Assembly: GCA_030278955.1 (NCBI GenBank)
Contig: JAOANR010000009.1
Span: 38,150,445 to 38,214,444 of the forward strand
Origin: Hygrophila difformis
Taxonomy: Eukaryota > Streptophyta > Magnoliopsida > Lamiales > Acanthaceae
Direction of reading: 5' to 3'
DNA length: 64,000 nt
The translations under genes were made by a program, and so were the position numbers. Numbering within the stretch: position 1 is the stretch's first letter; the number at the start of each line of letters is the position of its first letter. Positions 21,727 through 51,044 of the stretch are shown here, one piece after another. The notes beneath the pieces are model-generated. The model did not search any database. It was not told the origin of the DNA and saw nothing but the letters and a program-made list of their open reading frames with translations.

Positions 21727-22040
21727 ATCGCCCTTGGGGAATCGAACCCGCAAGAACTCAAATACATCCTAGGGAATTGAACCCATATGAATCAACACAC
21801 ATTCTGGGAATCGAACCCGCAGGAAAATATACAATCGCCCTTGGGGAATCGAACCCGCAAGAACTCAAATAAATCCTAGGGAATTGAACCCATAGGAATC
21901 AACACACATCCTGGGGAATCGAACCCGCAGAAAAACATATAATCGCCCTTGGGAATCGAACCCACAAGAACTCAAATACATCCTAGGGAATTGAATCCAT
22001 AGGAATCAACACACATACTGGGGAATCGAACCCGCAGGGT
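21727..22040 (-). repeat. Array of nine tRNA-T-arm-like hairpins in the F LTR
   Basis: Three higher-order units of 107-108 bp (starting 21727, 21834, 21942) each hold three hairpins of about 36 nt. In element sense each has a GGG/CCC inner stem and a 7-nt loop TTCGATT or TTCAATT, matching the T-loop consensus TTCRANY. The outer stems vary but pair: CTTG/CAAG, CCTA/TAGG, CTG/CAG. Confidence 0.85.
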
Positions 22041-23862
22041 AAGAACAAGTTTCGCAAATTTCACAAAATATAATCTCCAAAGTCACACGAATCATCTATT
22101 TCTCAAAAGTCGACTATTTCAACATTTCAACCAAGTCATTGCCACAGTTTACGCCATCTCAGTTTAAAAATTCATTTCAAAGGCAATCGACTTGAAATTT
22201 CTACAGTAGCTCAAAAACACGTTAACGAACAACTTTCATGTTTTACGTTTTCCGAAAATAGGTGAGGAAACAAGTGAAATTTCACAATCTTTGCATGACA
22301 TAAAATCTGCTAACTTTTCTAACACAGCGCACTGATTTTCAAAAGAGATTTTGACATAGCAAACGATCTCCAAAATTTATGAAATTTTACAGGCACTTAA
22401 AAGACACCAAAATAAACAACTTTTATTTGAGGCAAATTATGCTAATTCATTACGGATCAAGTCAGAATATTTCACTATGTTCGGATTTAAAATCTGTTGA
22501 CTTTTTCTTCTCGGACACAGTGTATTCAAAACGGGATTTGACTATTCAAACGATGATGAAAATGCACGACAGAATATGTTTGACGCGATTTGGAATATCA
22601 AATCTTAATGAAAATGTATGAAATTTTAACACAAGCTAGATTAAGATGTTAGGAATAAATCTCTAGTTCGGAGTTTTTCGTTTCGAATTCTCGAAATAGG
22701 GGTTTTCGGCCAATCTCAAAAAACGCGTAAAGATTGAATCTTTTATGTCCGATTTTAGTGTTTGGATTAAAACTAATATTTTTAACGATTCAAAGCCACC
22801 AATATTGATATGTAAGGCATTATCTTACTTGAATCTCGTCCTAGACAGTCTCGGGGTCGTCCGGGCTCTAAGATTTGACACGAACGGATCTCCTCAACGC
22901 AAAGCTTCCAACTTTGGCCACGAATTCGAATCGAAAGAAGAAATCTAATGTTAGATCGAATTTTCGGGTTCGAAAACTTAAACAAAAACCTATGAACGAC
23001 TTACCACAATCTGGAATACTAAAGATCTTGTTCTCCACGCCTCCTCCGTCGATTTTCGTCGCCGGAAAGTGATCGGAAAGTTCGAAGTTGGTGATTTCGG
23101 GTGTTGGAAGAACTTTGGAGAGTTAGAGAGTGTTTTTAGGGCTGCTAGGGTTAGAGTCTCGAAAATAATGAGTCCTAAGACCTTTAAATCCGACCATATA
23201 CACCTTCCATCAACGGGATTGAGTTTCCAAAGTCGGGGGTCGAAAATAAGGTAAGAAATCGCCGAAAATCGAAACATGATCGCAGCCTGTTGAGTGGTGC
23301 GGCCTTGGTGTGGTATTCCTCTAGACCGCGCGGAGACCGCATGGACCCCGCCTGGGCTGCAGCCTGGGCCGGGTCATGCGATCCGTCGGGCCTTTTCTCC
23401 TCTCTTTTGGGCTTCTATCCTCCTACGTTTTCGGGCTCGATTTTTCGGGTCATTCTCGGATCATGGTTCCTATCTTAAATTTATTTCATCTCTAATAAAT
23501 TTCGTATTCGAAATCTTGAGTCCATCGAGTTTAAATTCGTCGGCTTTGAATTCGTCGTCTTTCGATTCCCATGCAATGATTTATTTATTTAAATCATTTT
23601 TGACTTCACGGTTCTTGGAATTAAAATTCTTTTCTTTCTTGAATTTAATTCCAATTCTTTTGACTCGATTCATGGAATGTCTTTGGGCTTCCTTTCCCTC
23701 TTTTATTCCATTTTGAATTTTTGGATCTATCGGCGTTTCATTTCCGAGCAATAATTTATTGTGATAAATTATTTTTTTCTTCTCGGAGATATTTCGACTT
23801 CGATCGGATGAAGAAACTAATTTTTATTCCTTTGGACGACGACAAAAATCTCCGGTATTACA

Positions 23863-27068: not shown

Positions 27069-29816
27069 TGTAACACCCCGGTTTTTTGTCACCCAGGTCG
27101 GGGTGTCACCGCCACACCTCCCTAGCAGGACACGATTTCTCCGAGCTTGCTAAAGAGATGCAAGGCTATGGTTTTTCAGAATTTAAAACATCCAAACAAC
27201 CCATTGTAATATAGCTCGAAAATAATATCGTTACAGTTGCAGCGGAAAATCATATTTACATATATAATGCAGCGGAATTTAAAAATAGGGCCAACATGGC
27301 CAAAGCACGGGTTAAACAGGCCCGTTCATGCAATTTCTAGTCTAACGCAAAATTTAAAAATAAAGTATTTTCCAAAAATTCCCATGAATGGATATGATGA
27401 TGCATATTCTACAGCTCTGAAAGAAAAACGGAAACAATATGGTTTGGTCAGCAAAAACTTGCTGAGTAAGTTAACACAAACATGATTATGGGGTTTCAAA
27501 GCCATTAATTAGATTTAAAGAAAACATGTGCATAACACCCCATAATTTAATTTATTTATCTAATAATAATTTAATTGCATAATTTAAAAGACATGAATTT
27601 CATAAGATCATAAATATAGCTTGCAAAATAATTAAATAAATTGACATAAATTTAAAAGCACAATTTAACCGCAATTTAATTTAAACAAATGGCTTGCTTC
27701 GTTTCTTTCACAGATCACCACCGCTAGGGCTCTTATGTCCGCCAGCCTTACGCTCGGGCTCTTATGTCCACGAGTATCATGGTCAATCTTTTAATAGGTT
27801 CATTACGTCCGCTGACCATACAATCAATATGTCGCTAGGGCTCTTATGTCCACTAGCCATACACTTGGGCTCTTATGTCCCAAGCCGTAGACAAAATTGA
27901 CAGTATCCAGATTAGTCATAAACCCCAATGTTTTAATCTTCTCTTTGTTTAGAAAGACCAATTTTCAAAATTTAGTAAGTTTCTCAAAATATACTATTTC
28001 AGGACGCTATCCCCTCCGATATCATTTAAAATCATTTTCAATAAGATTTTCAAGATTTGACTTGGTCAAAACTACTGTTTACTCCAAAATTAATTAAAAA
28101 TCGGTTTCAAGTCCAAAAATTCTGAAATTTGACCAGTGTCTCGAGAACACAGAGATGAACAAGTTTCATGTTTTACGTTTTTCGATCCGGCATACGGAAG
28201 TAAGTCAAAAACATCGATTTCTAACAGGTTACAAATCTGTCCGAATCTTTACGACAGCAGTTACTAAATTTCGAGATCTACCATAGCAAACCAACTCCAA
28301 AATTGATGAAATTTTATAGGGAGATGCTTAAGACATATATCTACAAGTTTTATGTTCAACAAAAGATCTAATTCACCCTATATCTATTGTCAAAAACGCC
28401 AACAACTTTGGGCCAAGAATCTGTCAAGATTTCAAGATCTAAATTTAGAACAGTTCGGTTTGGAGTCAAATTCCGATATCAAACCTCAACGAAAAATTCC
28501 AAAAATTTACGGAGGTGTTCTTAACGTATAGATCACAACTCTTATGTTTAGCACCAATCCTAAATCGGTCTAGATCTAGGGTAAAAAGCAACCTCAAGTT
28601 CGGATAAAGAATCTATCACCGTTTCAAGATCTAAGTCAAAGGCAGGTCTGTTTTTGGTCGTTTTCGGATATCAAAACACAATGAAAATTTATGAAAATTT
28701 TACAGTAGCTAGATCTACATCTTAAGAACGTTTTTTGTGTTTTAAGTTTTCTCGTTTGAGCAGGTTTAAGGGTTCGGAAAAATCATGCAAAAACATTGCG
28801 CCGTTAAAGATTTCGTTTGACAGATTTTTAAGTTCTTGATTTAAATCTTTAGATTAGATATATTTTAATTCGCCCAAAACCATAGTAAGGTTAACTTACA
28901 AGAATTGGATTATCCGGCTCGTCGATTCGTAGGCGTGGCTTCCACGTTCACCGTTTATCTCCTCGGTTCGTCGGGTTCTTCGTTCTAGATCTGAATCGGG
29001 GTGTAGAAGAGAAAGAGATCGGGTTAGGATTCGTTTTCGAATCAAGAATGGAAAAAGATTAAATCGGATCTTACCACGACGATAGAAGACTTCCGAATTT
29101 CGTCCATGGCAGTCCCTTCTCTTAATTTCGTGCCTCCGACGACTCCGGAATTAGGGTTTGATGTGTAGAGATTTTTCGTAGGGTTTTGAAAAGTGTTTGG
29201 GGCTAATTAGGATGTTTATTTATAGATGTAAAGGACCTAAAGGACGTCCAAAGGCAACCCTAGGATGTCTTGAGTCGCAAGGTGAGCAACCGAAGTCGAA
29301 AAATTCGGATTCGGGCGAGTAAATCTCGCAACGGGCGAATCTGTCCGATGGCGCGGCCTTGGCGCGCCGTTTAGCCAAAAACCGCACGGCCACCGCGCGG
29401 CCCACGCCTGGACTTCGGTCCGGGCGGGTCATGCGATCCGTCGGGCATTTCTTCCTCTCTCTATCGGACTTCTATCCCTCTATGTTCTCGGATTCGGATT
29501 TTCGGGATATTTTCGGGCTTAGGGTTTAGGAACTAGGAGCCCCTATCTTAATTCTTACTCGGGTCTAGATTTAATATTGGCCTCGAATTCTCGAGTCCAT
29601 TAGTGTCGGGTACACTTGTACAATTTGTTTGATTAATTTATCTTTGGCTTTACGGGTATTGGAAATTTTTATTCCTTTTTAATTTAAATTCCATTTCCCA
29701 TCTCTTATGATTCTTTATCTATTTATCATGTTCATTTATTTATTATATTTATTTATTATTTATTTATGTATTTATTTATTTATTTATGTTATGTTGCAAA
29801 ATTCCCGGGTATTACA
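27069..29816 (-). repeat. E2 3' LTR (2748 bp, inner start)
   Basis: It runs from TGTAACACCCCGG (left) to the reverse of TGTAATACCCGGG (29816), the same point at which the 5' LTR of this element ends (55427). Sense TATA-like sequence lies near 29218-29226. It contains a GGGCTCTTATGTCC hairpin array and diverged 180-200-bp modules, and no coding sequence. Confidence 0.88.
27717..27893 (-). repeat. Constant-loop hairpin array in E2 3' LTR
   Basis: GGGCTCTTATGTCC recurs four times. On the plus strand it is flanked by different pairing stems: GCTAG/CCAGC, CTCG/CGAG, GCTAG/CTAGC, CTTGGG/CCCAAG. A longer 7-bp stem ATGGTCA/TGACCAT lies between. The same array is at 53362-53541 in the 5' LTR. Confidence 0.85.
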
Positions 29817-30332: not shown

Positions 30333-33102
30333 TGTAACACCCGCGAAAAAAAAAACAAATTCAAATTGTTTTGAACTACGTCATGACTTGATCCCTTCAC
30401 AGGGTACGTAGGCAGCTTGGGAATTTAAATACCAAGTTTAGTCATAAAATAAATCACAAAATAAAAACATAACCGAAAGCATCCCAATGTTTAAACCCGA
30501 AGAAACCAAAACACAACTTCAGTAAAATCATTAAGGAAGGACGGGACGAGTTTAAGTAGACGAATTATCATACGGAAGTTAGATCGAATTCGTAAATAAA
30601 CCCACGTGAGAATTTCGAGTCGGGAATGACCCGAAAAGTCGGACCAAGAGCGCGAAGGATAGAAACCCGATCGAGAAAAGGAAGAAAAGAACCGACGGAC
30701 CACACGAACCGCACGAACCGGCCGGTTCGGCGGCGTGCACCCCGCGCGCGCACGCGCGGCCACCGCGCGGGGAAAGGGAGACGCATCCCAGGACTGTTCG
30801 CGCGCACTCCGCGCGGACAAAGGCTTATGTGCGCGCCACCACCGCGCCAGAGGTGCAGGAGGTGTAAACTTTCCTTCTATGGCAATTTTCTTGCCAAAAA
30901 TCCGTCCCCTATCGAGGGGAAGCGGATCAAGGCAGTGGGGAAGGTTATAGGGGCTGTGTTGGCCGCCCCTCCCCTTAGTTTTCAGTTTCTCAAAACCCTA
31001 GACACTCACAACTCCCTCTCCAAGCCAAAACTCATCCGACGACAACTTCCGGCGAACATTCCGGCGACGGCGAGGCAAACGGGACGAAGGCACTGCCCCA
31101 TAGAATCTTGGTAAGCCATAGTTTAATGTTTTAGTTCGTCCATAACACTTAGAAACTCAAAATCTAACCCGTTTCCTTTACTACGATTTCACGCCGGAAA
31201 ACGAACGAAAAGCGATCGGAAGGGTTGGCCGTTCGTCGGGACCCTAGAACGTCCGGATACCCATCCTAGTAATCCTAATCTTCAAATCTGTAAGTTAAAA
31301 CCTTACTCACAAATTTTCGTGCTTATTGGTTGTTTAAAACTCGAGATATAGTCTTGTAACAAAAATCGGTTTTCAAAAACCCTATTTTCGTCCAATTTCA
31401 AAGACTCGCCTAAAACTCGACCTTCGGGAATTCAAACCGAAAACTTTTCAACATAAAAGTTGTTCCTAACACCTTTATCTATCTTGTATCCAAATTTCAG
31501 CCGTTGACATTAATATTTGCTATCCCAAATCATGCTGTAAACTTTCTGTGACAACCCGAACATTTCAAACTGTGACAGTTTCTCTTACTCGACTTGATGC
31601 ATGTTTTTCACCCATTTTTAGAATGATTCAACTTTGCATTCCTAAACAAAAGTTGTAGATAATTGTGTCTAGATTATGAATATAAAATTTCACGAATTTT
31701 GGTGTTCATTTGATATGCCCAACGGTCAAATTTCAGAACTGCTTTAAAACCTTTTCGGAGCCCGCGAGTATACAGTGGGTTGTGGTCGATTTTTGAGTAT
31801 CAAGAATTCATTATTTTCAAATTCTTAAAACATGAAAGTTGTTCCTTAACGTGTGTTTGTATTTACTGTAAAAATTTCGCATCAATTGGTTTTGAAATGA
31901 ATTTTTAATCGGCGTCGTACTAACCTGTGACGAAACCCGTTTTTGAGACAGAAATTATCTTTGCAAAGAACTCGAAATTCAACTCACTTCAAACCTTATT
32001 TCCAAAAACTTAAAACATGAAAGTTGTTCATGTGTATGTTTTCGAACTACTGTAAAAATTTCAGAATTTTTGGTGTAAAGACGAATTTTTAATTAAGAAA
32101 GGCGTAAACTGCCTCGAATAGGATTTTTCGAACTTGAGAAAACTCGAACCATGAAAACGCGATATCGATCATTTGATAACATTGAAATACGAACTTTCAA
32201 AAAATCCCGTTCACTAGGCCGAGCCGATCTTCATGCTATCATTATCTTTGAGACTGCCTCGTTAGTGGTCTCCTTACTATCTAAGATTGCCTCGTTAGTG
32301 ATCTCGCGCGCTGTATTTTTGGATCGCCTCGTTAGTGGTCCTACTATCTTTTTCAGACTGCCTCGTTAGTGGTCCCCCATTGTTTGGACTGCCTCGTTAG
32401 TGGTCCTATGTTGAGATTGCCTCGTTAGTGATCTCCCGGTATGGTGTCCTCTTCTTAGTCGACGGGATAAAATGTAAAAGACTTGTGTGAGTGTTCCATT
32501 ATGCTTAAATCGTATTTATCATGTTTTTAAATTATGTATTTAAAATTAAGCATCTTAAATTATGCTTAAATTACGCTTTTAAAATTATGTCCTTTAATCA
32601 TGTTTTCCGTTGCAAATAAATTATGTATTTTAAATTTATGTATGGAAAGCGAGATCTTTAGTTTAAACACATGTAACCCCTTTTATTTGTTAGTTAGGGA
32701 TTAACTTACTCAGTATATCTTTATACTGACAACCGTTGTCGTTTTTTTTTTCTTTTACAGAGTATGTCGAGTGACGCATGCACACGCATTTGGGGGGGAT
32801 ATATTTGTGAACGTTTTTAATTACTGCATCATACTACTGTTTTACCGGGTCTGTTAAACCCGAGGTTTTGGCTGTGTTGGCCGTGACTACTTTTCCGCTG
32901 CACTTACCTTATCCATGCATGATGACTTTTACCGCCGTACTATGATTGAAGTATTAATAAATTCCGGATTCATTGTTGAATGTTTTAAAACTTTGCATAC
33001 CCATAAGCCTTGCACTTCCTTAGCGAGCTCGGGAAGCCGTGTCTTGCTAGGGAGATGCGGCGGTGACACCTCGGCCTGGGTTACCAAATCCGGGGTGTTA
33101 CG
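30333..33102 (+). repeat. D 5' LTR (2770 bp, outer start)
   Basis: It starts TGTAACACCCGCG and ends GGGGTGTTACG (ACA changed to ACG). The inner hairpin and tract are decayed (near 30520-30560). There is a GC-rich block at 30640-30830, donors at 31111 (GTAAGC) and 31290 (GTAAGT), four diverged modules of about 180-200 bp around AAAGTTGTT (about 31450, 31650, 31831, 32016), a hairpin array (32250-32435), and an acceptor after a long pyrimidine tract (AG at 32759-32760). ORFs of up to 162 codons across the GC-rich block are incidental. Confidence 0.9.
32250..32435 (+). repeat. Six hairpins with constant loop and covarying stems (D 5' LTR)
   Basis: The loop TGCCTCGTTAGTG (13 nt, first base C in unit 3) is repeated six times. 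Stems around it pair although they differ: GAGAC/GTCTC, AGAT/ATCT, GGAT/GTCC (one G-U), GAC/GTC, GGAC/GTCC, GAGAT/ATCTC. The same array in the 3' LTR is at 50195-50380. Confidence 0.93.
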
Positions 33103-33105
33103 AGT

Positions 33106-33117
33106 TGGTATCAGAGC
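33106..33117 (+). promoter_or_regulatory. Primer binding site, initiator Met-tRNA (D)
   Basis: TGGTATCAGAGC lies three bases after the LTR end and is identical to the E1 site. Confidence 0.9.
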
Positions 33118-33475: not shown

Positions 33476-33874
33476 ATGGCCGAGCCCAACGCGAACATGG
33501 TCAATTTGATGGTGAAATTGATGAACGCATACCTCGAGGGCCAACAGCACATCAATTACTTCAAAACTCGGGTAAGACAGTTGGAGGGTAACGTGGCCCA
33601 TCTGGGTCATCTTAGGGAGGCAGACCATCACCACATAACCCAGCTGCAGGAGCAAGTCACGCAGCTCCAGGCCCAAGTGGCCCAGCTCCAGGACAAGGGT
33701 GATGGCTTGGAGGAGCAAGTGGAGAACCTGGGCTGGGACTTGACCAACCTAACCCAGGACGTTGGAGAGGCGATCCTCCAGAACCTGGGCCCTGGCCCCG
33801 ACGTCGCTGCTCCCATTGACGTATCCAGCGACGAGGACGACCCCATCGAGGATGCCCCTGCCTATCCCCTCTAG
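33476..33874 (+). CDS. ORF0: conserved coiled-coil protein (D), 132 aa
   Basis: Intact ORF that starts MAEPNANMVNLMVKLMNAYLEG and is about 65% identical by eye to ORF0 of E1, including HLGHLREADHH (residues 43-53) and the acidic end IDVSSDEDDPIEDAPAYPL. Residues 55-95 are a Gln/Leu-rich heptad repeat (QLQEQVTQLQAQVAQLQ), so a strong coiled coil is expected. It is GC-richer than its E1 homologue. It survives in an element that has lost gag and pol, which suggests that the protein or its RNA is needed in cis. Confidence 0.78.
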   Translation: MAEPNANMVNLMVKLMNAYLEGQQHINYFKTRVRQLEGNVAHLGHLREADHHHITQLQEQVTQLQAQVAQLQDKGDGLEEQVENLGWDLTNLTQDVGEAILQNLGPGPDVAAPIDVSSDEDDPIEDAPAYPL

Positions 33875-34433: not shown

Positions 34434-35687
34434 CTAAGCCTGCCTCGTAGCAAACGAGTCCATACGGGTCTGGTAGAAGTCCAACATAGCATCGATGGCG
34501 TCATAACGAGCCTGCCCAGCTGCAAACCCGGCATCCATACCGACCCGCATCTCCTGCATCATCTGCAGCATCTGAGCCATCTCCTGTCCCTGAGGTGCCA
34601 CTGCAGGAGGTGGAGCTACTGGAGGAGGGGGTGGCTGCTCCGGTGGTACAACAAGGATCAGGCCGCCGTCATCAGTCTGCGGGCGAAGTACAGCACGGGG
34701 AGCCCCACGACGTAAGGCGCTACGCCGGTCAGCATAAGTCGGGATACGGTAGCAACGGCCCGCTACTAGGTCGTACGGATCTGTCTCCAGTGTAGTGCGA
34801 ATCCCCTGCGCCGCGCACAACCCACAGATGAGGTGAACATGGGTAATCACCCTACTCCCTCGTCCTCTCCGCATACCCCGCAAGTTGTCTTCGATACAAG
34901 GTCCTACATTCACCCTACCGTCTCGCGCGATAAAGCAAATGGTCTCGTAGACGTGATCCAGGACAATGTGGCTCCGGGTGATCGGCCGGACGCGCCCTAA
35001 CCACAGCTGAGCAAGCTCTCGCCAAGGGGAGTCCATCGTCGTCAAACGAAGCTCATGACCGTGCTCGAGCTGAGGAGGCACTATGGTGCATAAGGTGTTC
35101 CACGCAGGAGCAAGAACACGTCCCTCAGGCTGTGGGCGAAATACGCCATCGTCAGGCAAGCCAAAAGAGACATTGATCGCCTGAGCACTGAAGTCGAGAT
35201 AGCGACCACGGACCCATACCCGAGATAGGTCGTCACCCTCCCCGAGACCGCCAATGTTGGCGATAACCTCCATAGCCAGATAACCGGAGGCAACGCCCTC
35301 GGGGTGACGTGCCAGACCGGTCCACTGCAAATACTCCAAGACTGCACTGACCCTGTCATCGCCCAGATGAAGAGGATATATGCCTCTCTCAGGGACGTAA
35401 GCCCTGTTTCGACGAAGCTCGTCGAAATAAAAGTCCTGGGCAACCCTCGTCCTAAACCGGAACCTGTCGTGCCGGTGAGGATGCACCTCGTCTGGGAGAC
35501 CCCTGAGTCGCGGGCCCCGCTGCTCCTCGTCCTCCTCTGGCTCGCTCTCGTCGGAATCAGGCATCGCCGGAGCGGCATGACTGGGGCCAGCCTCATCAGC
35601 AACTCGTCTCCTAGTCCTCGGAGGACACATGAGAGACGCCAGAACGACCCATAGAAAGAGCAACATCCTGCAGGTAGCCAATACCAA
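34434..35687 (-). CDS. Antisense ORF in D: plant transposon-protein (Transposase_32-like) family, 417 aa
   Basis: Uninterrupted ORF on the strand opposite to D. The first ATG is 35687; a second in-frame ATG at 35666 follows a good splice acceptor and is the more likely start (410 aa). An acidic Ser/Glu-rich N-terminus (residues 40-56) precedes a core: AQDFYFDELRRNRAYVPERG (83-102), ANIGGLGEGDD (143-153), VWVRGRYLDFSAQAINVSFGLPDDG (157-181), SHIVLDHVYETICFIARDGRVNVGPCI (239-265), VITHVHLICGLCAAQGI (280-296). A proline run (350-363) and a C-terminal Met/Gln-rich coiled coil (367-415) follow. The core pattern resembles the 'putative plant transposon protein' domain (Transposase_32 as I recall), often found next to gag-like plant transposon genes; its function is unknown. 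No DDE triad is evident. Confidence 0.75.
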   Translation of the reverse strand: MVLATCRMLLFLWVVLASLMCPPRTRRRVADEAGPSHAAPAMPDSDESEPEEDEEQRGPRLRGLPDEVHPHRHDRFRFRTRVAQDFYFDELRRNRAYVPERGIYPLHLGDDRVSAVLEYLQWTGLARHPEGVASGYLAMEVIANIGGLGEGDDLSRVWVRGRYLDFSAQAINVSFGLPDDGVFRPQPEGRVLAPAWNTLCTIVPPQLEHGHELRLTTMDSPWRELAQLWLGRVRPITRSHIVLDHVYETICFIARDGRVNVGPCIEDNLRGMRRGRGSRVITHVHLICGLCAAQGIRTTLETDPYDLVAGRCYRIPTYADRRSALRRGAPRAVLRPQTDDGGLILVVPPEQPPPPPVAPPPAVAPQGQEMAQMLQMMQEMRVGMDAGFAAGQARYDAIDAMLDFYQTRMDSFATRQA

Positions 35688-37050: not shown

Positions 37051-37067
37051 CTTAAGGGGGGGGAGGA
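37051..37067 (+). promoter_or_regulatory. Outer polypurine tract (D)
   Basis: CTTAAGGGGGGGGAGGA directly precedes the 3' LTR start TGTAACACC at 37068. It is the best-preserved copy of this tract in the window. Confidence 0.88.
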
Positions 37068-37825
37068 TGTAACACCAGAGAAAAAAAAATTCAAATTGTT
37101 TTGAACTACGTCATGACTTGATCCCTTCACAGGGTACGTAGGCAGCTTGGGAATTTAAATACCAAGTTCAGTCATAAAATAAATCACAAAATAAAAATAT
37201 AACCGAAAGCATCCCAACGTTTAAACCCGAAGAAACCAAAACACAACTTCAGTAAAATCATTAAGGAAGGACGGGACGAGTTTAAGTAGACGAATTATCA
37301 TACGGGAGTTAGATCGAATTCGTAAATAAACCCACGTGAGAATTTCGAGTCGGGAATGACCCGAAAAGTTGGACCAAGAGCGCGAAGGATAGAAACCCGA
37401 TCGAGAAAAGGAAGAAAAGAACCGACGGACCACACGAACCGCCCGAACCGGCTGGTTCGGGCGGCGCGCACCACGCGCGCGCACGCGCGGCCACCGCGCG
37501 GGGAAAGGGAGACGCGTCCCAGGACTGTTCGCGCGCACTCCGCGCGGACAAAGGCTTATGTGCGTGCCACCACCGCGCCAGAGGTGCAGGAGGTGTAAAC
37601 TTTCCTTCTATGGCGATTTTCTTGCCAAAAATCCGTCCCCTATCGAGGGGAAGCGGATCAAGGCAGTGGGGAAGGTTATAGGGGTTGTGTTGGCCGCCCC
37701 TCCCCTTAGTTTTCAGTTTCTCAAAACCCTAGACACTCCCAACTCCCTCTCCAAGCCAAAACTCATCCGACGACAACTTCCGGCGAACATTCCGGCGACG
37801 GCGAGGCAAACGGGACGAAGGCACT
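37068..37825 (+). repeat. D 3' LTR, left part (continues at 49039)
   Basis: It starts TGTAACACCAGAG and is collinear with 30333-31094 of the 5' LTR, including the GC-rich block. It stops at GCACT (37821-37825), the left target duplication of E3. Confidence 0.93.
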
Positions 37826-40433
37826 TGTAACACCCCGGTTTTTGGTCACCCAGGTCGGGATGTCACCGCCACATCCCCCTAGTAAGACACGGTTTCTTCG
37901 AGCTTACTAAAGAGGTGCAAGGCTAGGTATTGCAGTATTTAAAACATTTAAATCATTCCAGATAGCCCATTCAACATAATTGGAAAATAATAATAGTATA
38001 GCACAGCGGAAATAATTGTTTTAGTATAGTATTGCAGCGGAAAATTTAAATAGGGCCGACATGGCCAAAACACGGGTTAAACAGGCCCGTTCATAATGTA
38101 GTCTAAAGTACGAATTTAAAAGCAAAACAAAGTTCCCAAAATCCCATGCATGATTCGTGCCCACACATGCTCATTCCACATATTCTGTAAGAAAAGGAAT
38201 AAAAACGGTTTTGGTCAGCAAACTTGCTGAGTAAGCTAACACATGCATGATCGTAGGGTTTAAAAGCCATTAATTTAATAAATAACTGAAAGCATGATAT
38301 TAACATATTATTCACTTTAATCTAATGAACTATTCAATAGCATAATTTATTTCATGGCTCTATTTAATAACACATATCGCATGGTTTAGAATAATAGCCA
38401 TAATTTAAAGAAAGCATTTAAATAATTTAATTGGACATCAACATAATTTAATCTAATTTAATTTAGTTTAATATCCCCATTACATCCCCGATTTGGTATC
38501 TCAAAGTTTCACGATAGTATCGCGATGTCAACAAGTTTAGCCGGTAGCCCGGCGGCCGCAACCGTATCAGCCATACCCAGTACCACTCCGGAGCCTCGGG
38601 AAACCCATACGGATATTCACGAGAGTGTAGGCTCTATATTTCACCGTTTTGGCAATATCACATTTCAAGTTTAGCGCGCGGGGTCACCATCGTCCATTAC
38701 GGCACGAAGTGAATCGTTAGGGGGCACCCTGCAGAGCACTCACCCCTAATTTTAATTTATCAAGTTTGTAAGGGGATTAAATTTTTAAAATCTGACTTCA
38801 ATTGTATTTATTTAGAAATAATATCTCAACTCGTTTCAACCCTAAAGGTTAATTCCATGTTTCAACAAGATTTCAAGATTTTGTTTCCGGTAAACCACAG
38901 TTTACTCTAAAATTCGTCTAAAATCAGATTTAATTCCAAAAATTCCAAAATTTCATATCTGACTCAGAAATGTCAAGATCTACAACTTTCGTGTTTTAAC
39001 TTTTTCAATCCGAGATACCTAAGTAGGTCAAAATCACCAATTTTCGCATAAGAATAATTCTGTCCGAGTTTAATGTATCACAGTTTAAAGATTTCGAATT
39101 CTACCATAGCAATTCAACTCCAAATCTGATGAAATTTTACAGAGATCATCTTAAGACAATTATCTACAAGTTTCATATTCGGCCAAAGATCAAAAACAGT
39201 CTAGATCCTATGTCAAAAACGTGATCAAGATCATTCCTAAGTTCTGTCCAAGATTTCAAGATCTAGATTCAAACAGTTCGGTTTTGGTAGGTTTTCACAT
39301 ATCAAATCGACTCCAAAAATTCTCAACAATTTACAGTAGCTAGATCTAGGACTTAGGAACGTTTTTCATGTTTTAAGTTTCTCCGCTTGAATTCGTTTTC
39401 AGGTTCGGAAAAATTCATCAAATCTGTTACGTCGGTAGAAAGTATAAATTGACAGATTTTCGATTTCTTGGTAATCTTTTAGTTTGAATGTTTTAATTCA
39501 TCCCAAAACCATGTAAGAGTTAACTTACAGAGTTTATGAACGCCCGGGATCGTCTATTCGAAGGCGTGGCTTCCCGTCCACCGTTTCTCCTCTCCGTTCG
39601 TCGGGTTCTACGATCTAGATCCAATACGAGGTGTAGAAGAGAAAAGAAGAAGATTAGGATTCGTTTTCGAATCGTTTATTGAACAAGGATTCGATCGAGA
39701 CTTACCACGACTATGGAGATCTGTAGAAATTTCGTCCAACAGCGTTCGTGTTGGTTTCGTGCCTCCGACGACTCCGGATTTAGGGTTTCGAATGTGTAGA
39801 AAATTGTAGGGTTTTGTAAAAGTATTCGGAGCTCCTAGGAGGTCTTATTTATAGATATCTAAGACCTAGGGCGTCCAAAATCTGACCCCAAGGGTCTTGG
39901 GTCGAGAGATGTTCAACCGAAAGTCGAAAAATCCGCGTTCGGGCGAGAGATTCACGCAACGGGCAAATCTGTCGCTTGGCGCGGTCGTGGCGCGCCCTTC
40001 CCCTTGTGACCACGCGGCCACCTCGCCGAACTCGCCTGGACTTCGGTCCGGGCGGGTCGTGCGATCCGTCGTGCTTTTCCGCCTCTCTTTCGGGTTTCTA
40101 TCCCTCTATGCTCCCGAATTCCGATTTCCGGGGTATCTTCGGGTTTCTACTTTCTCTCTAAATTTTTACTCGGTTCTCTTATGGATGTTTGGACTCGAAT
40201 CCTCAAGTTCATTAGTGTCGGGTTTCGGTGTACAATTTATTTATCCTTACTCAATTCTTTTTATTTAATTAAATTCCTTTAATTCCTTTTTAAGTTAAAT
40301 CTCATTTCTCATTTCCTTATCTTTATTTATTTCTTTATTTGCTGGATTCATTTATTTATTTTATTTATTGTATTTATTTTTTATTTATTTAATTATTGTT
40401 TTATTTTATGTTGGAAAATTCTCGGGTATTACA
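37826..40433 (-). repeat. E3 3' LTR (2608 bp)
   Basis: From TGTAACACCCCGG to the reverse of TGTAATACCCGAG, the same limits as the 5' LTR. It is the reference for the inner LTR start: outside it lie the inner polypurine tract and a relic outer start at 40633. Confidence 0.93.
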
Positions 40434-40650
40434 GTCTACCCTCCTTAAGAATCAACTTCGTCCTCGAAGTTGTGTTTCGGCTTTTCTCGTGCTAAGGTCT
40501 TGTGTTTGTTTTATTATGTTGTGACTGAACTTAGAATTAAAACTTCTAAGCTGCCTACGTACCCGGTAAAGGGATCAAGTCATAACGTAGTTCAAAAGTT
40601 TACACAAGTGCACGAAAAATAGGTGGTATGACATCCTCTCCCCCTTAAGA
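40434..40650 (-). promoter_or_regulatory. Inner and outer polypurine tracts of E3 with conserved hairpin
   Basis: Element sense: the outer tract (40650-40634, TAAGGGGGAGAGGA), a relic LTR start TGTCATACC (40633), about 160 bp, the perfect hairpin CAACTTCGAGGACGAAGTTG (40472-40453), the inner tract TTCTTAAGGAGGGTAGAC, then the real LTR start at 40433. Confidence 0.85.
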
Positions 40651-40656
40651 TTGCAG

Positions 40657-43600
40657 TTATGTCCCCATAACTGTGTCGGTATCGGTTTGGAACAATGTCG
40701 GGTATCGTTCCCTCATGTCGGATTCTGCTTCCCAAGTTGCCGTCTCACTTTCGTGGTTTGACCAAAGAACCTTGATCATTTTGACGGTTTTGTTCCTCGT
40801 TACTCGTTCCTTAGTATCGAGAATACGCACTGGGACTTCTTCGTAAGCCAAATCTTCATCGAGCTCAATTATCTCCGGTTGAAGTACATGTGTCGAGTCC
40901 GGCACATACTTCTTTAGTTGCGAGACATGAAAGACATTATGAACTCGATCTAAGTGTTGCGGTAAAGCCAATCGGTAGGCTAGAGTTCCGACTCGTTCTA
41001 GAATTTCGTAAGGTCCTATATATCGAGGACTTAACTTCCCTCGTTTGCCAAAGCGCATCACCCCCTTCATGGGTGATATCTTTAGCATGACCCTATCTCC
41101 CACTTGAAATTCTAGGTCTCGTCGTCTCACGTCGGCATAACTCTTTTGACGGTCTTGTGCGGCTTTCATCTTCCCTTGAATCACTTTGATGTGTTGAGCC
41201 ATGTCTTCGATAAGTTGTGGTCCCACTACCACGGACTTATCGTTTTCTTCCCAGCTCAATGGGCTTCGGCACTTTCGTCCATACAACGCCTCGAAAGGTG
41301 CCATGCCGATGCTAGCATGGTAGCTATTATTACATGAAAACTCAATCAAGGGTAAATGAGATTCCCAATTCCCTTTAAATTCCAACACGCATGCTCTCAG
41401 CATGTCTTCTAGTGTTTGGATTGTTCTCTCGGTTTGACCATCCGTCATCGGGTGGAATGCGGTGCTCATTTTGATTTGAGTACCGAGAGCCTTTTGTAAC
41501 TCCGTCCAAAAGTGAGAGACAAATCTACTGTCTCTATCGGAAATGATGTCATGTGGTACTCCATGTCGTCGTACCACATTATCAATGTAGGCTCGGGCCA
41601 ATTGGTCCATAGTCCACGTGTCTTTCATTGGGATAAATATGGCTGTCTTCGTTAGCCTATCCACAATCACCCAAATCTTGTTCATGCCTTTAGGTGATCG
41701 GGGTAATCCCGAGACAAAGTCCATTGAGATGCTATCCCACTTCCAATTTGGAATCTCTAGTGGTTGCATCAATCCTAGGGGTTTATGTCGCACTGCCTTA
41801 ACCTTTTGGCAGGTGAGACATCTCGCCACGAAGTTCGCCACTTCCTTCTTCATTTCCGGCCACCAATAGATCTTCTTCAGATCTTTGTACAGCTTGTCAC
41901 CTCCGGGATGTACGGAATATGGCGTGTTGTGCCCTTCCTCCATCAACCTTTGTTTCAACTCGGCACATTTAAGGGGCACACACCATCTCCCTTTAAAACG
42001 GATGCTTCCATCCTCGCGGACAGCAAATCCTATTGCCTTTCCTTCGGCAATATACCCTTTTATCTTCTCGAGTTTCGGGTCGCCCGGTTGAGCGAGTCGA
42101 ATCTCGTCCAATATTGGAGTTTCTACGACCATGGCATTGACCGTTTCTCTCACTGTGCCAGGATGCACAAGTTCTAACTCCAATCTTGCCAATTCCATGT
42201 ACAATGCCGGCGGAATTACCAACGAGTTTGTAACGTGTTGGGTTTTCCGACTTAGGGCATCGGCTACCACATTCGCCTTCCCCTCGTGGTATGCTATCTC
42301 TAAATCGTAGTCTTTAATAAGTTCCAACCACCTTCGCTGTCTCAAATTCAACTCCTTCTGAGTGAATATATATTTCAAGCTCTTGTGGTCGGTGAACATT
42401 CGACACTTCCGCCCATAAAGATAATGTCTCCATATCTTTAGAGCGAAAACGACCGCTGCCAACTCCAGGTCGTGTGTCGGATAATTTTCCTCGTGAGGTT
42501 TTAGTTGGCGTGATGCATAGGCTACGACTCTCGAGTCTTGCATCAAGACACAACCTAAACCTTCCTTCGAAGCATCGCTGTAAACTTCGAAGTCACCATT
42601 CTCTGATGGTAGTGTTAATATGGGTGTGGTTGTGAGTCGTTTCTTCAGCTCTTGAAACGCAGTCTCACAAGTTTCGGTCCACTCGTATTTTGCTCCTTTC
42701 TTCAGTAGCTGGGTCAAAGGACGTGCAATCCTTGAAAAGTCCTTCACAAATCGTCTATAATTCCCGGCTAATCCAAGGAAACTCCTTATTTCCATTGGAC
42801 TCTTCGGAGTCGCCCATTCAGTTACGGCGGAAACCTTTTCCGGATCCACTGATACTCCATCAGCGGATACTATGTGTCCGAGAAATGCCACTTCTTTCAA
42901 CCAGAAATCGCATTTCGACAGCTTGCCGTATAGCTGATTTCTTCGCAAGATTTCTAACACTTGATGTAAGTGTTGGGCATGCTCTTCCTTGCTCTTTGAG
43001 TAGATCAGGATGTCGTCGATGAACACTACGACGCACTGATCTAACAATTCTCGGAACACGTTGTTCATGAGATTCATGAACATGGCCGGAGCATTTGTTA
43101 ACCCGAAGGATAACACTGTGAACTCGTAATGGCCATATCGCGTTCGAAATGCCGTCTTCGGAATGTCCTTCTCGGCGATCCTCAATTGATGATACCCAGA
43201 TCGCAAATCGATCTTCGAGAATACTGAAGCTCCCTTCAGTTGATCAAACAGATCCTCTATTCTCGGTAGGGGGTATTTATTCTTAATGGTCACTTGGTTT
43301 AGTCCTCGGTAATCTATGCAAAGACGTAGTCCTCCGTCTTTCTTCTTGACAAATAAAACCGGTGCTCCCCAAGGGGACGTATCGGTCTTATGTAACCCTT
43401 TCCTAACAGCTCCTCGAGTTGTTCTTTTAACTCCTTCATTTCCAGTGGTGCCATCCGGTACGGAGCTTTTGAGACAGGCTCTGTCCCCGGAATGAGATCT
43501 ATAGTGAATTCAAGATCTCTCTCAGGTGGCATGCCCGGAACGTCCTCAGGGAACACGTCCGGGTATTCTCTTACCACTGGTATGCTATCAACCTTGTTCT

Positions 43601-44072
43601 CTTCCGCCTCAAGGTTGTGCACATAGCACGCATATAGTTCGTACCCCTTACGCATCAAGTTACTTAGTTTAAGTGCACTAACGATTTTGTTACTTTTCTT
43701 AGGGGGCTGAGAGTAATAGATAACTCTCTTTCCCCTACTTTTTGACAAGGTGATCTTTTGCTTTTGGCATTCGATCACCGCCTTATACTGGGATAACCAA
43801 TCCATCCCCAGTATGATGTCAAAGTCTCTTAAGTTAAATTCTACCAAGTTCGCGAAGAATTCTACGTTCTTTATCACTATAGGAATTCCGTTATATCGTT
43901 TAGAGCAAGAAACTACTTCTCCAGAAGGCAATTGAATTCCTAAGCTAATTCTCTCGCACTTAGGTAGATCTAACTCAGGCACTATCCTTGATGCTATAAT
44001 TGAGCAACTAGCTCCAGAATCAAATAGAATTCTAAGGGGCATATTCAACACATAAAATGTACCTGCCATCAC
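40657..44072 (-). pseudogene. pol: E3 pol, complete apart from one 1-bp deletion
   Basis: Two ORFs form one pol. The first (44072-43314) holds the protease with its active site DSGAS (Asp 18), ILGMDWLSQYK and the RT start. A 1-bp deletion near 43385 (after GYIRP) shifts the frame. The second (43293-40657, 878 codons) holds RT (FIDD 91-94), RNase H (Asp240, Glu277, Asp302, Asp345), integrase zinc finger (His455, His462, Cys492, Cys495), catalytic Asp525, Asp586 and Glu622, the GPY/F module ([10 protein letters not shown]) and a chromodomain (about 795-870) ending [16 protein letters not shown]. All catalytic residues I can check are present. The chromodomain probably targets insertion to heterochromatin, as described for chromoviruses. 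Confidence 0.93.
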
Positions 44073-44075
44073 TTC

Positions 44076-45380
44076 TCATTGCGCAGGCACGTCCGCTTGG
44101 TTCACCACGTTCAGCCTCCCCATAGGGCGTCCCTGATTGCCCTGCTGATTCGCATTCGGCTGCTGATTTTGTTGCTGGTTTTGATTCTGAGGGGGCGGAG
44201 GTCGTTGGTTCTGGTTCTGGTTTTGCGGCCTATTTTGAGGGGGTCTGTACCCTTGGTTATTCCCGTTTCGCCCGTTTTGATTTTGAGGCTGTTCTTGCCC
44301 CGCGACCAAATCGTCCCTCTTCGTTATGTTCTCGAGCCTAGTCCGGCAGTCCCGTCGAACGTGACCCATTCGACCGCATCGGTAACAGGCGCCTTGTTGC
44401 GGGCATCCCCTTGCCAGATGGGGTCGTCCACATCTCGGGCAAGGCGGTACCGGATCTTCTTGGTTGAACCTCCTCCCAGTGTTGTTTTGTTGGGGCCTAT
44501 TCGACCCTCTGCGCTGCTCGTTCCTTCCAGTGTTGTTCTCGTTTCTTGAGTCTCGACTTCTCTTGTCTTGGGGACCCCTGCTGGACTCCCCACTCACCCT
44601 TCTTTTCAGCTGATGCACGCGTGCTACCGCCACAGCGCGGTCATACACAGCTTGCAAATCGGGGTAGTGTACCCCCGCGATCACCTCGCGCACAGACAGG
44701 TTCAGTCCCATCTCGAACTTCTGTGCCTTTTCTGCATCAGTAGACACTAGCCTTGGTGCGAACCTCACCAGCTCCTTGAAGCGTGTGTAGTATTCCTGCA
44801 CCGTTTGGCCTCCTTGCTTCAGCGACAGGAACTCTTCGTACATGGCAGCTTTAGTACTCAAGGGGTAGAATCGATCCCTGAGTAGTTCCATCATCTCCAT
44901 CCACGAGTAGGGCTCGTCATCTTCAGTCAGTTTGGCTTGAGTGGCCTGCCACCAGTCGTCAGCTTCGCCTCCCAAGTAGTACGAAGCGACGTGCACTCTT
45001 TCTCCTTCCGGACATTTAACTGCTCCCAGCAGCTTGTCGAAGGTCCGGATCCACTCTTCCAGTTTAGCTGGATCCTCCTCACCAGCATACTGGGGCGGCT
45101 GGTAAGGATTCACCATCGCCAGGTAGTTAGGGCGAGCTTGGGGCGGAGGTACCGCCGCAGCTTGACCCTGGTTGACTTGCGCGTTCCCGAGCGCAATCAA
45201 CACTTCCTCTATCGTCCTAAGACGATCGCCCACATTATTCGGTGCGGGGGCGTCCTGCGCACCTTGGGGCTGTTCCATTTCAGGTTGAATCGGTTCAGTG
45301 ACGTTTGGTGGTGTTTCAGTAGGTGTTTCAGTGGTGGTTTGGGGAGCGGTTTGAGTCCTTCCTCTTCCTCTGGGTGCCAT
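44076..45380 (-). CDS. gag: E3 Gag, 434 aa
   Basis: Intact ORF that starts MAPRGRGRTQ. The gag domain spans about residues 105-235 (WIRTFDKLLGAVKCP, VASYYLGGEADDWW, YSWMEMMELLRDRFYP, QEYYTRFKELVRFAPRL). A basic region follows (258-300), then two zinc knuckles: Cys314-Cys317-His321-Cys326 and Cys332-Cys335-His340-Cys345. A Gln/Asn/Pro-rich tail ends NVVNQADVPAQ. The TGA stop (44078-44076) replaces a Gly codon that is GGA in copy A, so gag and pol were probably one frame; whether this stop is a lesion or permits recoding is unknown. It forms the particle shell and binds RNA. Confidence 0.93.
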   Translation of the reverse strand: MAPRGRGRTQTAPQTTTETPTETPPNVTEPIQPEMEQPQGAQDAPAPNNVGDRLRTIEEVLIALGNAQVNQGQAAAVPPPQARPNYLAMVNPYQPPQYAGEEDPAKLEEWIRTFDKLLGAVKCPEGERVHVASYYLGGEADDWWQATQAKLTEDDEPYSWMEMMELLRDRFYPLSTKAAMYEEFLSLKQGGQTVQEYYTRFKELVRFAPRLVSTDAEKAQKFEMGLNLSVREVIAGVHYPDLQAVYDRAVAVARVHQLKRRVSGESSRGPQDKRSRDSRNENNTGRNEQRRGSNRPQQNNTGRRFNQEDPVPPCPRCGRPHLARGCPQQGACYRCGRMGHVRRDCRTRLENITKRDDLVAGQEQPQNQNGRNGNNQGYRPPQNRPQNQNQNQRPPPPQNQNQQQNQQPNANQQGNQGRPMGRLNVVNQADVPAQ

Positions 45381-45676
45381 TCTGGTACAAATAGGATAGA
45401 TTAGGACTTTGTGAATTTAGCATATAGCCTAAGCAATTTCTGTGATTGTATATGTGTGTTGCAATTTAGCACGAGGTGCTTTGTTCAAACTAAGAAGCGT
45501 CGTACGCTTCGGGGTTTTATTTTATTTCGGATTTTTTTTTTCGGCTGTACGGACAGATCTGTCCTTTTTTTTTTCGATTTATTACAAATAAATCGGGCAT
45601 TTTATTTCCTCAGAAGAAATTTTAGTACAAAAGTAGAAATATTTTCCTAGCAAAATAGTATCTAACAATAGAATCT

Positions 45677-46012
45677 CTAGTGTCTCATGACGTCCTTCGG
45701 CGGGGTAGCAGGATCTTCCTCCAGATCTTCCTCCTCCGAACTCGGCGGCAGTAGGTCGTCAAAGATAGTGTTTAAGTCTTGCCCGTGGGCATCGACGTAT
45801 TCCTTTAGTATTAAGTTTTGTGTAGTGAGGGTTTGGACTTGGCGTTCGAGTTGGTTTATGCGGTGATGATCCGCCTCTCTCAGGTTGCCCATGTGATGTA
45901 GATTGGCCTCCAATTGAGCCATACGGTACTTCATTTGCTCTAGGGTTTGGTGGGAATCGAGATGAACGCTCATCATCCTGACCATCAACTGCATCATGTC
46001 TTGACTAGCCAT
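45677..46012 (-). CDS. ORF0: conserved coiled-coil protein (E3), 111 aa
   Basis: Intact ORF between the primer binding site and gag (297 bp before gag). It starts MASQDMMQLMVRMMSVHLDSH. It shares with the E1 and D proteins the Met/Leu-rich N-terminus, the pattern RMAQLEANLHHMGNLREADHHRINQLERQVQTL (residues 32-64) and an acidic C-terminus (SSEEEDLEEDPATPP). Identity to the other two is only moderate, so the LREADHH core is conserved over a real divergence. It is predicted to be a coiled coil throughout. No family is recognised. Confidence 0.75.
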   Translation of the reverse strand: MASQDMMQLMVRMMSVHLDSHQTLEQMKYRMAQLEANLHHMGNLREADHHRINQLERQVQTLTTQNLILKEYVDAHGQDLNTIFDDLLPPSSEEEDLEEDPATPPKDVMRH

Positions 46013-46410
46013 CTAGCGCAAGCAAGAGATCTAAGTTAATATTCGCCAAGATTCTAAGTTCAATTCGCCAAGATTCTAGGTTCAATTCGCCAAGATTCTA
46101 AGTTCAAGTTTCCAAGATTCTACGTTCAAGTTTCGCCAAGATTCTAAGTTCAAGTTTCGCCCAGATTCTAAGTTCAAGTTTCGCCAAGATTCTAAGTTCA
46201 TAACAGAGATGCAACATGCAAATGCAAATGATGATTCCCCCCCAAAAATAATTTAATGCAATATATATATATATATATTTTTCCATGGGTTTTTAAAATA
46301 AAAATTTGCCATGGAAATAATACTTTAAAATTTAAAATAATAGTCAAAATACTAATAATAGTTTAAAAATAGTAATGGTTTAAAAATAGTAGTTTAAAAA
46401 AAATAGCCGG
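46013..46410 (-). other. E3 leader with short tandem repeat
   Basis: Untranslated leader between the primer binding site and ORF0. Plus-strand bases 46041-46200 hold about seven copies of a 22-25-bp unit (TTCGCCAAGATTCTAAGTTCA). A TA run lies at about 46262-46279. The reverse frame is open across the repeat but has no homologue. Confidence 0.75.
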
Positions 46411-46422
46411 GCTCTGATACCA
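46411..46422 (-). promoter_or_regulatory. Primer binding site, initiator Met-tRNA (E3)
   Basis: The minus strand reads TGGTATCAGAGC, three bases inside the 5' LTR end at 46426. Confidence 0.9.
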
Positions 46423-46425
46423 ACT

Positions 46426-49033: not shown

Positions 49034-49038
49034 GCACT

Positions 49039-51044
49039 GCCCCATAGAATCTTGGTAAGCCATAGTTTAATGTTTTAGTTCGTCCATAACACTTAGAAAC
49101 TCAAAATCTAACCCGTTTCCTTTACTACAATTTCACGCCGGAAAACGAACGAAAAGCGATCGGAAGGGTTGGCCGTTCGTCGCGACCCTATAATGTCCGG
49201 ATACCCATCCCAGTAATCCTAATCTTCAAATCTGTAAGTTAAAACCTTACTCACAAATTTTCGTGGTTATTGGTTGTTTAAAACTCGAGATATAGGCTTG
49301 TAACAAAAATCGGTTTTCAAAAACCCTATTTTCGTCCAATTTCAAAGACTCGCCTAAAACTCGACCTTCGGGAATTCAAACCGAAAACCTTTCAACATAA
49401 AAGTTGTTTCTAACACCTTTATCTATCTTGTGTCCAAATTTTAGCCGTTGACATTAAGATTTGCTATCCCAAATCACGCCGTAAACTTTCTGTGACAACC
49501 CGAACATTTCAAACTGTGACAGTTTCTCTTACTCGACTTGATGCATGTTTTTCACCCATTTTTAGAATGATTCAACTTTGCATTCCTAAACAAAAGTTGT
49601 AGATAATTGTGTGTCTAGATTATGCATATAAAATTTCACGAATTTTGGTGTTCATTTGATATGCCCAACAGTCGAATTTCAGAACTGCTTTAAAACCTTT
49701 TCGGAGCCCGCGAGTATACAGTGGGTTGTGGTTGATTTTTGAGTATCAAGAATTAATTATTTCCAAATTATTCAAACATGAAAGTTGTTCCTTAACGTGT
49801 TTTGTAATTACTGTAAAAATTTCGCATCAATTGGTTTTGAGATGAATTTTTAATCGGCGTTGCACTAACCTGTGACGAAACCCGTTTTGAGACAGAAATT
49901 ATCTTTGCAAAGAACTCGAAATTCAACTCACTTCGGAACCTTATTTCCAAAAACTTAACACATGAAAGTTGTTCGTGTGTGTGTTTTCAAACTACTGTAA
50001 AAATTTCAGAATTTTTGGTGTAAAGACGAATTTTTAATTAAGAAAGGCGTAAACTGCCTCGAATAGGATTTTTCGAACTTGAGAAAACTCGAACCATGAA
50101 AACGCGATATCGATCATTTGATAACATTGAAATATGATATTTCGAAAAATCCCGTTCACTAGGCCGAGGCGATCTTCATGCTATCATTATCTTTGAGACT
50201 GCCTCGTTAGTGGTCTCCTTACTATCTGAGATTGCCTCGTTAGTGATCTCGCGCGCTGTATTTTTGGATCGCCTTGTTAGTGGTCCTACTATCTTTCTGA
50301 GACTGCCTCGTTAGTGGTTTCCCATTGTTTGGACTGCCTCGTTAGTGGTCCTATGTTGAGATTGCCTCGTTAGTGATCTCCCGGTATGGTGTCCTCTTCT
50401 TAGTCGACGGGATAAAATGTAAAAGACTTGTGTGAGTGTTCCATTATGCTTAAATCGTATTTATCAAGTTTTTAAATTGTATTTAAAATTATGCATCTTA
50501 AATTATGCTTAAATTACGCTTTTAAATTTATGTCCTTTAATCATGTTTTCCGCTGCAAATAAATTATGTATTTTAAATTTATGTATGGAAAGCGAGATCT
50601 TTAGTTCAAACACATGTAACCCCTTTTATTTGTTAGTTAGGGATTAACTTACTCAGTATATCTTTATACTGACAACCGTTGTCGTTTTTTTTTCTTTTAC
50701 AGAGTATGTCGAGTGACGCATGCACACGCATTTGGGGGGGATATATTTGTGAACGTTTTTAATTACTGCATCATATTACTGTTTTACCGGGTCCGTTAAA
50801 CCCGAGGTTTTGGCCGTGTTGGCCGTGAGTACTTTTCCGCTGCACTTACCTTATCCATGCATGATGATTTTTACCACCGTACTGTGATTGAAGTATTAAT
50901 AAATTCCGGATTCATTGTTGAATGTTTTAAAACTTTGCATACCCATAAGCCTTGCACTTCCTTAGCGAGCTCGGGAAGCCGTGTCTTGCTAGGGAGATGC
51001 GGCGGTGACACCTCGGCCTGGGTTACCAAATCCGGGGTGTTACA
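49039..51044 (+). repeat. D 3' LTR, right part
   Basis: It continues from 37825 after E3 and its GCACT duplication (49034-49038). It contains the second copy of the covarying hairpin array (50195-50380), an acceptor near 50702, and the terminus GGGGTGTTACA at 51044, followed by CGCAC (51045-51049). Confidence 0.93.

Follow-up and report, generated by a model that had tools for sequence, protein, structure and literature searches.

Each LTR of element D, a non-autonomous LTR retrotransposon within a nest of plant-type Ty3/gypsy elements, carries six tandem hairpins in which a core sequence is constant while the arms around it vary yet stay paired. In the window (the whole 64-kb stretch of Hygrophila difformis DNA that was analysed) this array, together with a stem that closes it, is predicted to form a hairpin domain in a likely LTR intron. 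We read this domain, with a probability of roughly 0.4, as a docking platform offering many sites to Gag, i.e. a packaging signal, and its function would be that of a family-specific tag of the unspliced genomic RNA, similar to the packaging signals of retroviruses. Behind this reading we rank an element for nuclear export, then, on a level with each other, control of splicing and a repeat devoid of function, and last a site acting as DNA.

Element D has two LTRs, a target-site duplication, a primer-binding site and a purine tract, and its parts are placed as follows.

30333..33102, + strand, 5' LTR of D
37068..51044, + strand, 3' LTR of D, interrupted by the nested element E
30328-30332 and 51045-51049, target-site duplication of D, CGCAC
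37821-37825 and 49034-49038, GCACT duplications that bound the nested element E
37059-37067, + strand, purine tract of D, GGGGGAGGA
33106..33117, + strand, primer-binding site of D, TGGTATCAGAGC, read from the sequence
33476..33874, + strand, 132-aa ORF of D, coiled-coil-like
34434..35687, - strand, antisense ORF of D, 417 aa, PF20167 (putative plant transposon protein) at 40 bits against a cut-off of 45

The primer-binding site TGGTATCAGAGC we take to be of the tRNA-Met type. No relative of the 132-aa ORF was found in the protein database, and a Pfam search detected neither gag nor pol (RT) in the two main ORFs of D, the gag-pol present within its span being part of the nested E and not of D. 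In E, a candidate Ty3/gypsy chromovirus, gag, protease, RT and RNase H all score above the Pfam cut-offs (RT well above), and two domains fall short of theirs, the integrase core rve narrowly, with 31.5 against 32.6, and the chromodomain Chromo clearly, with 17.8 against 25.1; the pol of E gave four pattern-matching stretches among viral contigs, none of them confirmed by tblastn. D comes nearest to the large retrotransposon derivatives (LARD). It resembles them in having LTRs, primer site and purine tract and in the absence of gag and pol from the ORFs searched, and differs by its coiled-coil-like ORF and its antisense PF20167-like ORF. Other tandem repeats of the window, at 46030-46200 (24-bp units), 60816-60858 (11-bp units) and 17222-17340 (47-bp units), show no hairpin pattern.

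The hairpin units are found at equivalent places of the two LTRs.

32250..32435, + strand, six tandem hairpins of the 5' LTR (32250-32272, 32283-32305, 32320-32342, 32354-32376, 32385-32407, 32413-32435)
50195..50380, + strand, six tandem hairpins of the 3' LTR (50195-50217, 50228-50250, 50265-50287, 50299-50321, 50330-50352, 50358-50380)

A search for TGCCTCGTTAGTG with up to two mismatches returned 12 matches in the 64 kb, six in 32255-32430 and six in 50200-50375, against a mean of 0.67 and a largest value of 3 in shuffled sequence, and the six-fold repeat that a first-pass annotation had placed here is thus correct for both LTRs. The same annotation described an invariant loop of 13 nt. 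The repeat is exact in five of the six units of each LTR, but unit 3 starts with CGCC and has one extra change in the 3' copy. The core is indeed constant, but its 13 nt are not all loop, as it pairs three further steps inward (U.G, G.U and C-G) in 12/12 units and leaves a true loop of 7 nt, CTCGTTA (CTTGTTA in one unit). Folded singly, all 12 units adopt the same form, with 6 to 9 pairs, the 7-nt loop and energies between -4.3 and -9.2 kcal/mol. With respect to unit 1, the core has diverged at 1/65 sites and the arms at 16/50 in the 5' LTR (2/65 and 14/50, respectively, in the 3' LTR), and the linkers between units vary in length and letters. A scan of the window for groups of three or more hairpins whose 4-bp arms pair exactly and which share a loop of 11-15 nt picked up only the arrays of D and of the LTR families B and H (7 rows, some being alternative registers of one array), and arrays of at least three units occurred in none of 60 shuffled windows. 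Positions 31000-52000 contain no Rfam match at gathering score, and matches to two TGCCTCGTTAGTG units were absent both from the viral contigs and from the genome contigs searched.

Tandem repeats are common in LTRs, and the array could be a palindromic unit duplicated in tandem, without function, whose stems were kept complementary through template switching during copying. We consider this improbable, since the cores stayed constant as the linkers drifted apart in length and sequence, with the arms changed at far more sites. The bearing of the fold and of arm covariation on this explanation is given below.

A second structural feature surrounds the array, a stem formed by its two flanks.

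32204..32216, + strand, closing stem, 5' side, ATCCCGTTCACTA (3' LTR copy at 50149-50161)
32456..32468, + strand, closing stem, 3' side, TAGTCGACGGGAT (3' LTR copy at 50401-50413)

The closing stem of D comprises 12 pairs, including one G.U, plus one mismatch, with mean pair probabilities of 0.98 (5' LTR) and 0.96 (3' LTR). Variants of it occur elsewhere in the window, CCCGTTAC/GTAACGGG in families A and H and CCCCTTAC/GTAA-T-GGGG in C and E, and the closing-stem duplexes reach -14.9 to -16.4 kcal/mol compared with means of -4.8 to -7.2 kcal/mol when one side was shuffled. By motif search, which covered families A-H, the closing stem is present in 6/12 LTR copies and 5/8 families (A3, C, D5, D3, E3 and H); it is missing by motif in A5, where the 3' side has decayed, in E5, where one base has changed, and in B, F5, F3 and G.

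Without its flanks the bare array is about as stable as shuffled sequence (z of -0.53 and -1.42), which fits a repeat without function, and its minimum free energy was dropped as structural evidence. With the closing stem included, the sense strand of the D domain gives z values of -2.29 (4/200 shuffles equal it) and -3.28 (0/200) in the two LTRs, compared with -0.95 and -1.37 for the antisense strand. Across families, with 100 shuffles each, C, A5, A3, D5, D3 and H lie between -2.3 and -4.6, the B array at -2.7, and E5 and E3 at -1.5 and -1.6, and the F and G domains fold no better than shuffles (F3 -1.1, F5 -1.0, G +0.6). Six control segments from the same introns gave values between -0.98 and +0.51. 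The recurrence of the closing stem and of domain stability across families stands against a repeat without function. Sense z is below antisense z in 11/12 domains, A3 and H being strong on both strands. A scan of the introns in 100-nt windows was discarded, as 24/591 windows with z of -2 or lower were scattered and none fell in D5.

The domain structure is well supported as a computed fold, and as such it would represent the structured leader RNA that is expected of a packaging signal of the retroviral type. The computed optimum of D, however, does not hold all six hairpins together: a wheel of six scores -60.5 and -65.9 kcal/mol in the two LTRs whereas the optima lie at -76.5 and -83.6 kcal/mol, since pairing also takes place between arms of separate units. 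The six-hairpin wheel is to be taken as a model.

Changes in the arms of D were followed by pairing each left arm with every possible right arm. The observed Watson-Crick cells, 24/30 in the 5' LTR and 26/30 in the 3' LTR, are in each case the maximum under any re-dealing of the right arms (p of 0.022 and 0.011, respectively; 0.078 and 0.011 with G.U included). Two pairs show changes on both sides, the fourth pair (A-T to G-C) and the loop-closing pair, for which the switch from C-G to T-A noted in the first reading was confirmed. Overall 90.6% of the D arm cells are paired, against 87.3 +- 1.7% in shuffles (30/500 reach the observed value), and only 30 to 53% pair when the partners are slid. 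Covariation inside D, whose units are related to one another, is by itself modest, a point in favour of the repeat without function.

Comparison of the two LTRs of D adds nothing to this argument. They differ at 6/186 sites in the array and 48/1816 elsewhere (p = 0.63), so they drifted neutrally after insertion, and LTR-to-LTR changes were dropped as a sign of selection. The proposal that changes in the second LTR are compensatory finds no support in these counts, and G.U pairing preserves one difference only where several had been claimed; three arm cells are paired in the 3' copy and unpaired in the 5' copy. The broader claim of a selected RNA structure with a conserved loop survives in its constant core and gains the closing stem and the larger folding of the sense strand, but loses the compensatory LTR-to-LTR changes. 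What goes beyond that first reading is the closing stem, together with the introns predicted for the LTR and the arrays with other loops in neighbouring families.

Neighbouring LTR families carry hairpin arrays with different loops at a similar distance to the predicted acceptor.

21733..22042, - strand, family B, nine hairpins around GGGTTCGATTCCC
27723..27889, - strand, family F, four hairpins around GGACATAAGAGCC (second copy at 53371-53537)
62440..62571, + strand, family H, four hairpins around GGGTT[AT]GATTCCC

The B units are about 35 nt apart, with outer stems that vary and are mostly paired (TCCTA/TAGGA, TTCTG/CAGGA and TCTTG/CAAGG types around GGGTTCGATTCCC), and the F arms around GGACATAAGAGCC read CTTG/CAAG, CTAG/CTAG, CTCG/CGAG and CTGG/CTAG. 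The B core GGGTTCGATTCCC resembles a tRNA T-arm. LTR H holds three kinds of hairpin within 62440-62767 (+ strand), namely the four GGGTT.GATTCCC units, one F-like unit and two GCCGGATCACCGGC units. The loops of B, D and F differ, and the cores of B and H are nearly identical, so loops are not strictly private to a family. In A, C, E, H and I, GCCGG-loop-CCGGC hairpins (for example at 5120-5195, 14055-14130 and 62680-62767) have a constant stem and a changing loop, the reverse of the pattern in D.

On re-dealing, none of the B, H and F arrays reaches significance by itself (p of 0.07 to 0.25); the four arrays of B, D, F and H combined give p values of 0.0001 to 0.0007, and 0.004 when D is left out, all of these being optimistic since units within one array are related. 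The combined test takes in one LTR copy each of D and F, nine B units and four H units, and leaves out the GCCGG hairpins, the three short units of G and, in F, a decayed stretch that separates unit 2 from unit 3. The unpaired base present in the other three F units was omitted in scoring F unit 1, a single register giving 16/20 instead of 19/20 paired cells. The arrays of other families add weight to the covariation argument, and arms that co-vary in separate arrays around other cores speak against template switching of a repeat without function. G.T cells outnumber A.C cells 12 to 4 across the arrays (p = 0.04), as expected for a structure in the sense RNA.

This surplus, being RNA-like, together with the sense-strand folding excess in 11/12 domains, makes it very improbable that the arrays act as DNA, as transcription-factor sites or TFIIIC B boxes of an intronic enhancer or insulator. 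The familiar B-box consensus is GGTTCRANNCC, and most B cores fit it, but the D and F cores do not. A TFIIIC B-box array was rejected for D, TGCCTCGTTAGTG being off this consensus.

The position of the domain in the transcript was approached through the sister LTRs. In the LTRs of E, F and G, CTATAAAT[AT] at about LTR position 450 to 600 is followed by AAACCCTA; D has AAACCCTA near 30990 and lacks a canonical TATA box, for which reason the transcription start of D is placed via the sister LTRs. The predicted start lies about 1.26 kb upstream of the array, which would thus fall within the leader, and the earlier placement of the array in the leader of the transcript stands to the extent of this homology, as a prediction. 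Splice-like signals flank the domain in nearly all LTR copies of the window, and in D they are the following.

31111..31115, + strand, predicted first donor, TTG before GTAAGCC, present in 12/13 LTR copies covering the place
31290..31298, + strand, predicted second donor, TCT before GTAAGTTAA, present in 12/13 copies and absent in A5
32710..32729, + strand, hairpin TCAGTATATCTTTATACTGA with the predicted branch site CTGAC
32741..32760, + strand, predicted acceptor, pyrimidine tract plus TTTTACAG, exon from 32761

TGGTAAG is found about 140 nt downstream of the TATA box in 12/13 LTR copies covering the place, with CTAAC or CTAAT a further 47-54 nt downstream of the first donor in 11/11 copies tested. 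A second donor-like GTAAG follows 159-180 nt after the first in 11 of the 12 copies with the first donor (not in A5), in the form GTAAGTT[AG]A in 10 copies and GTAAGATAA in B. At 31290 and its equivalents GTAAGTTAA is followed by CTTAC, able to pair with the donor itself. At the far end, CTGA[CT] stands 27-31 nt upstream of the acceptor, with a pyrimidine tract past it, in 14/14 LTR ends, and the predicted acceptor is CAG in 13/14 (CTG in F5). The predicted long intron would measure 1492-1866 nt if it starts at the first donor (12 copies; 1650 nt in D5) or 1316-1708 nt if it starts at the second (11 copies; 1471 nt in D5). The hairpin domain is downstream of both donors, inside the predicted long intron from either.

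Splicing of these LTR introns, from the donors to the far acceptor, is thus a prediction. In D no ATG occurs in the first exon, 27 between first donor and acceptor and 12 between acceptor and ORF, so splicing would leave some upstream ATGs. No spliced long-intron junction was present in the 64-kb window (0/11 from donor 1 and 0/11 from donor 2, the best showing 5 to 8 mismatches). U-richness was abandoned as an intron mark, T being lower in first exons than in introns but not in the exon after the acceptor; the first-exon row for D3 in this comparison is not D sequence.

A conserved hairpin, TCAG...CTGA, in which one pair covaries (C-G to T-A), has the predicted branch site in its 3' arm. Of the cells of this hairpin 97.9% are paired, compared with 6 to 58% when slid (10 of the 14 copies given), and the 5' arm is altered in A3 (TCAT) and E5 (TCAA). 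Acting with the folded domain, such a hairpin may delay excision of the long intron and in this way determine how much genomic RNA there is relative to messenger RNA. As an explanation of the array, we judge this switch to be less probable than export, as the fold by itself accounts for neither the constant loop nor the six copies, and the branch hairpin also occurs in families without a loop array. The burial of the branch site speaks for it, as does LTR copy J, which suggests that splicing can take out a short intron and leave the long one in place.

57219-55433 with 27066-25238, - strand, LTR copy J, interrupted by F

In J, the thirteenth copy, about 90 nt are gone, starting exactly at the GT of the first donor. 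The counterpart of the gap is 90-91 nt and ends in GATCTAG in C, E and F, not so in G, the far end of the gap not being fixed by the letters, as joins moved by up to 30 nt fit equally or better. The second donor, the far acceptor and the intervening sequence are retained. The gap is possibly a short intron lost through copying of a spliced RNA and, if so, the RNA that was copied still had the long intron with the hairpin domain in it.

Under the standard mechanism of reverse transcription, LTRs are expected to lack an intron missing from the template. With R at both RNA ends and spanning the introns, copying of an RNA free of the long intron should yield LTRs without it; every copy in the window has the predicted long intron, which suggests that the copied RNA keeps it. 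The predicted domain, being intronic, would be present in unspliced RNA only, and a structure within a retained intron would label exactly that genomic RNA. If the loop were private to each family, every Gag could pick its own genome. Since D has no gag-pol, its Gag would have to come from a partner with the same loop, and an element of this kind was not present in the 64-kb window.

Packaging is supported by the constant core with variable but paired arms, by a closing stem shared by the two LTRs of D and by five of eight families, by the sense-strand excess in folding, by the donors and branch sites of nearly all LTR copies, by the lack of a spliced long-intron junction in the window, by loops that differ between B, D and F, as a reader encoded by each element would permit, and by copy J, with its short intron apparently lost and its long-intron signals retained. 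It is weakened by B, F and G, which lack the closing stem (F and G with domains no better than shuffles), by the opposite pattern of the GCCGG hairpins, by the near-identity of the B and H cores, by the missing canonical TATA box of D and by the computed optimum of D, in which the six hairpins are not all formed at once.

In retroviruses psi lies near or downstream of the major splice donor. The D hairpins are similar to psi in their place in the leader, predicted only in unspliced RNA, and in Gag/NC as the proposed reader; they differ in that donors and acceptor are all within the LTR and that one loop is present in six copies. Retroviruses and barley BARE both draw the RNA that they package from the unspliced pool (PMC7599994, PMC3735527), and the packaging signal of RSV is present in spliced and unspliced RNA alike (PMC7599994). 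D also resembles the spliced plant LTR retrotransposons BARE, Ogre and EVADE in that splicing, here predicted, would separate RNA pools. According to PMC3735527, BARE packages unspliced RNA and its intron, of 104 nt, is at the end of gag, whereas the predicted introns of the D type are in the LTR leader. A 2025 review (PMC12786077) describes plant LTR retrotransposons as generally without introns, with Ogre and EVADE as notable exceptions, and their RNA export as so far without direct study.

Export offers another use for such a domain: by binding a host export factor it would allow intron-containing RNA to exit the nucleus, by analogy with the CTE, RTE and MTE of animal retroelements. The transport elements MPMV CTE, IAP RTE, MusD MTE and MER11 CTE are multi-stem-loop RNAs that serve intron-containing RNA, as the D domain, which sits in a predicted intron, would do. 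Multi-stem-loop sequences of animal LTRs can work as transport elements, the MER11 CTE being LTR-derived (PMC11379458); similar in size to the 265-nt domain of D are the CAR export elements, which measure 160-285 nt and contain 10-nt motifs (PMC12786077). D differs from the transport elements in repeating one hairpin, in its plant host and in loops that differ between families, and any transport activity in D is putative. A shared host factor should favour a single loop, but those of B, D and F differ within one genome, a pattern easier to reconcile with a partner that the element itself encodes, and export, first among the alternatives, is in our view unlikely.

Among open-licence titles and abstracts we found no description of hairpin arrays, tandem repeats or covarying stems in plant LTRs, nor of LTR or leader introns, packaging structures or transport elements of the kind seen in D. 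It is conceivable, though doubtful, that the domain stands for a new kind of RNA element. Such an element would be a closed wheel of repeated hairpins whose loop is particular to the family, set in an intron contained within the LTR, and it would act as an identity tag through which each plant chromovirus-like family recognises its unspliced genome apart from the RNAs of relatives in the same cell.

How plant LTR retrotransposons choose between genomic and messenger RNA, and between their own RNA and that of relatives, has been little studied. If the packaging reading is true, an LTR-contained intron with a domain of repeated hairpins would offer a single cis element on which packaging, export and splicing could all be studied, and the loop sequence would predict which autonomous element mobilises which non-autonomous element.
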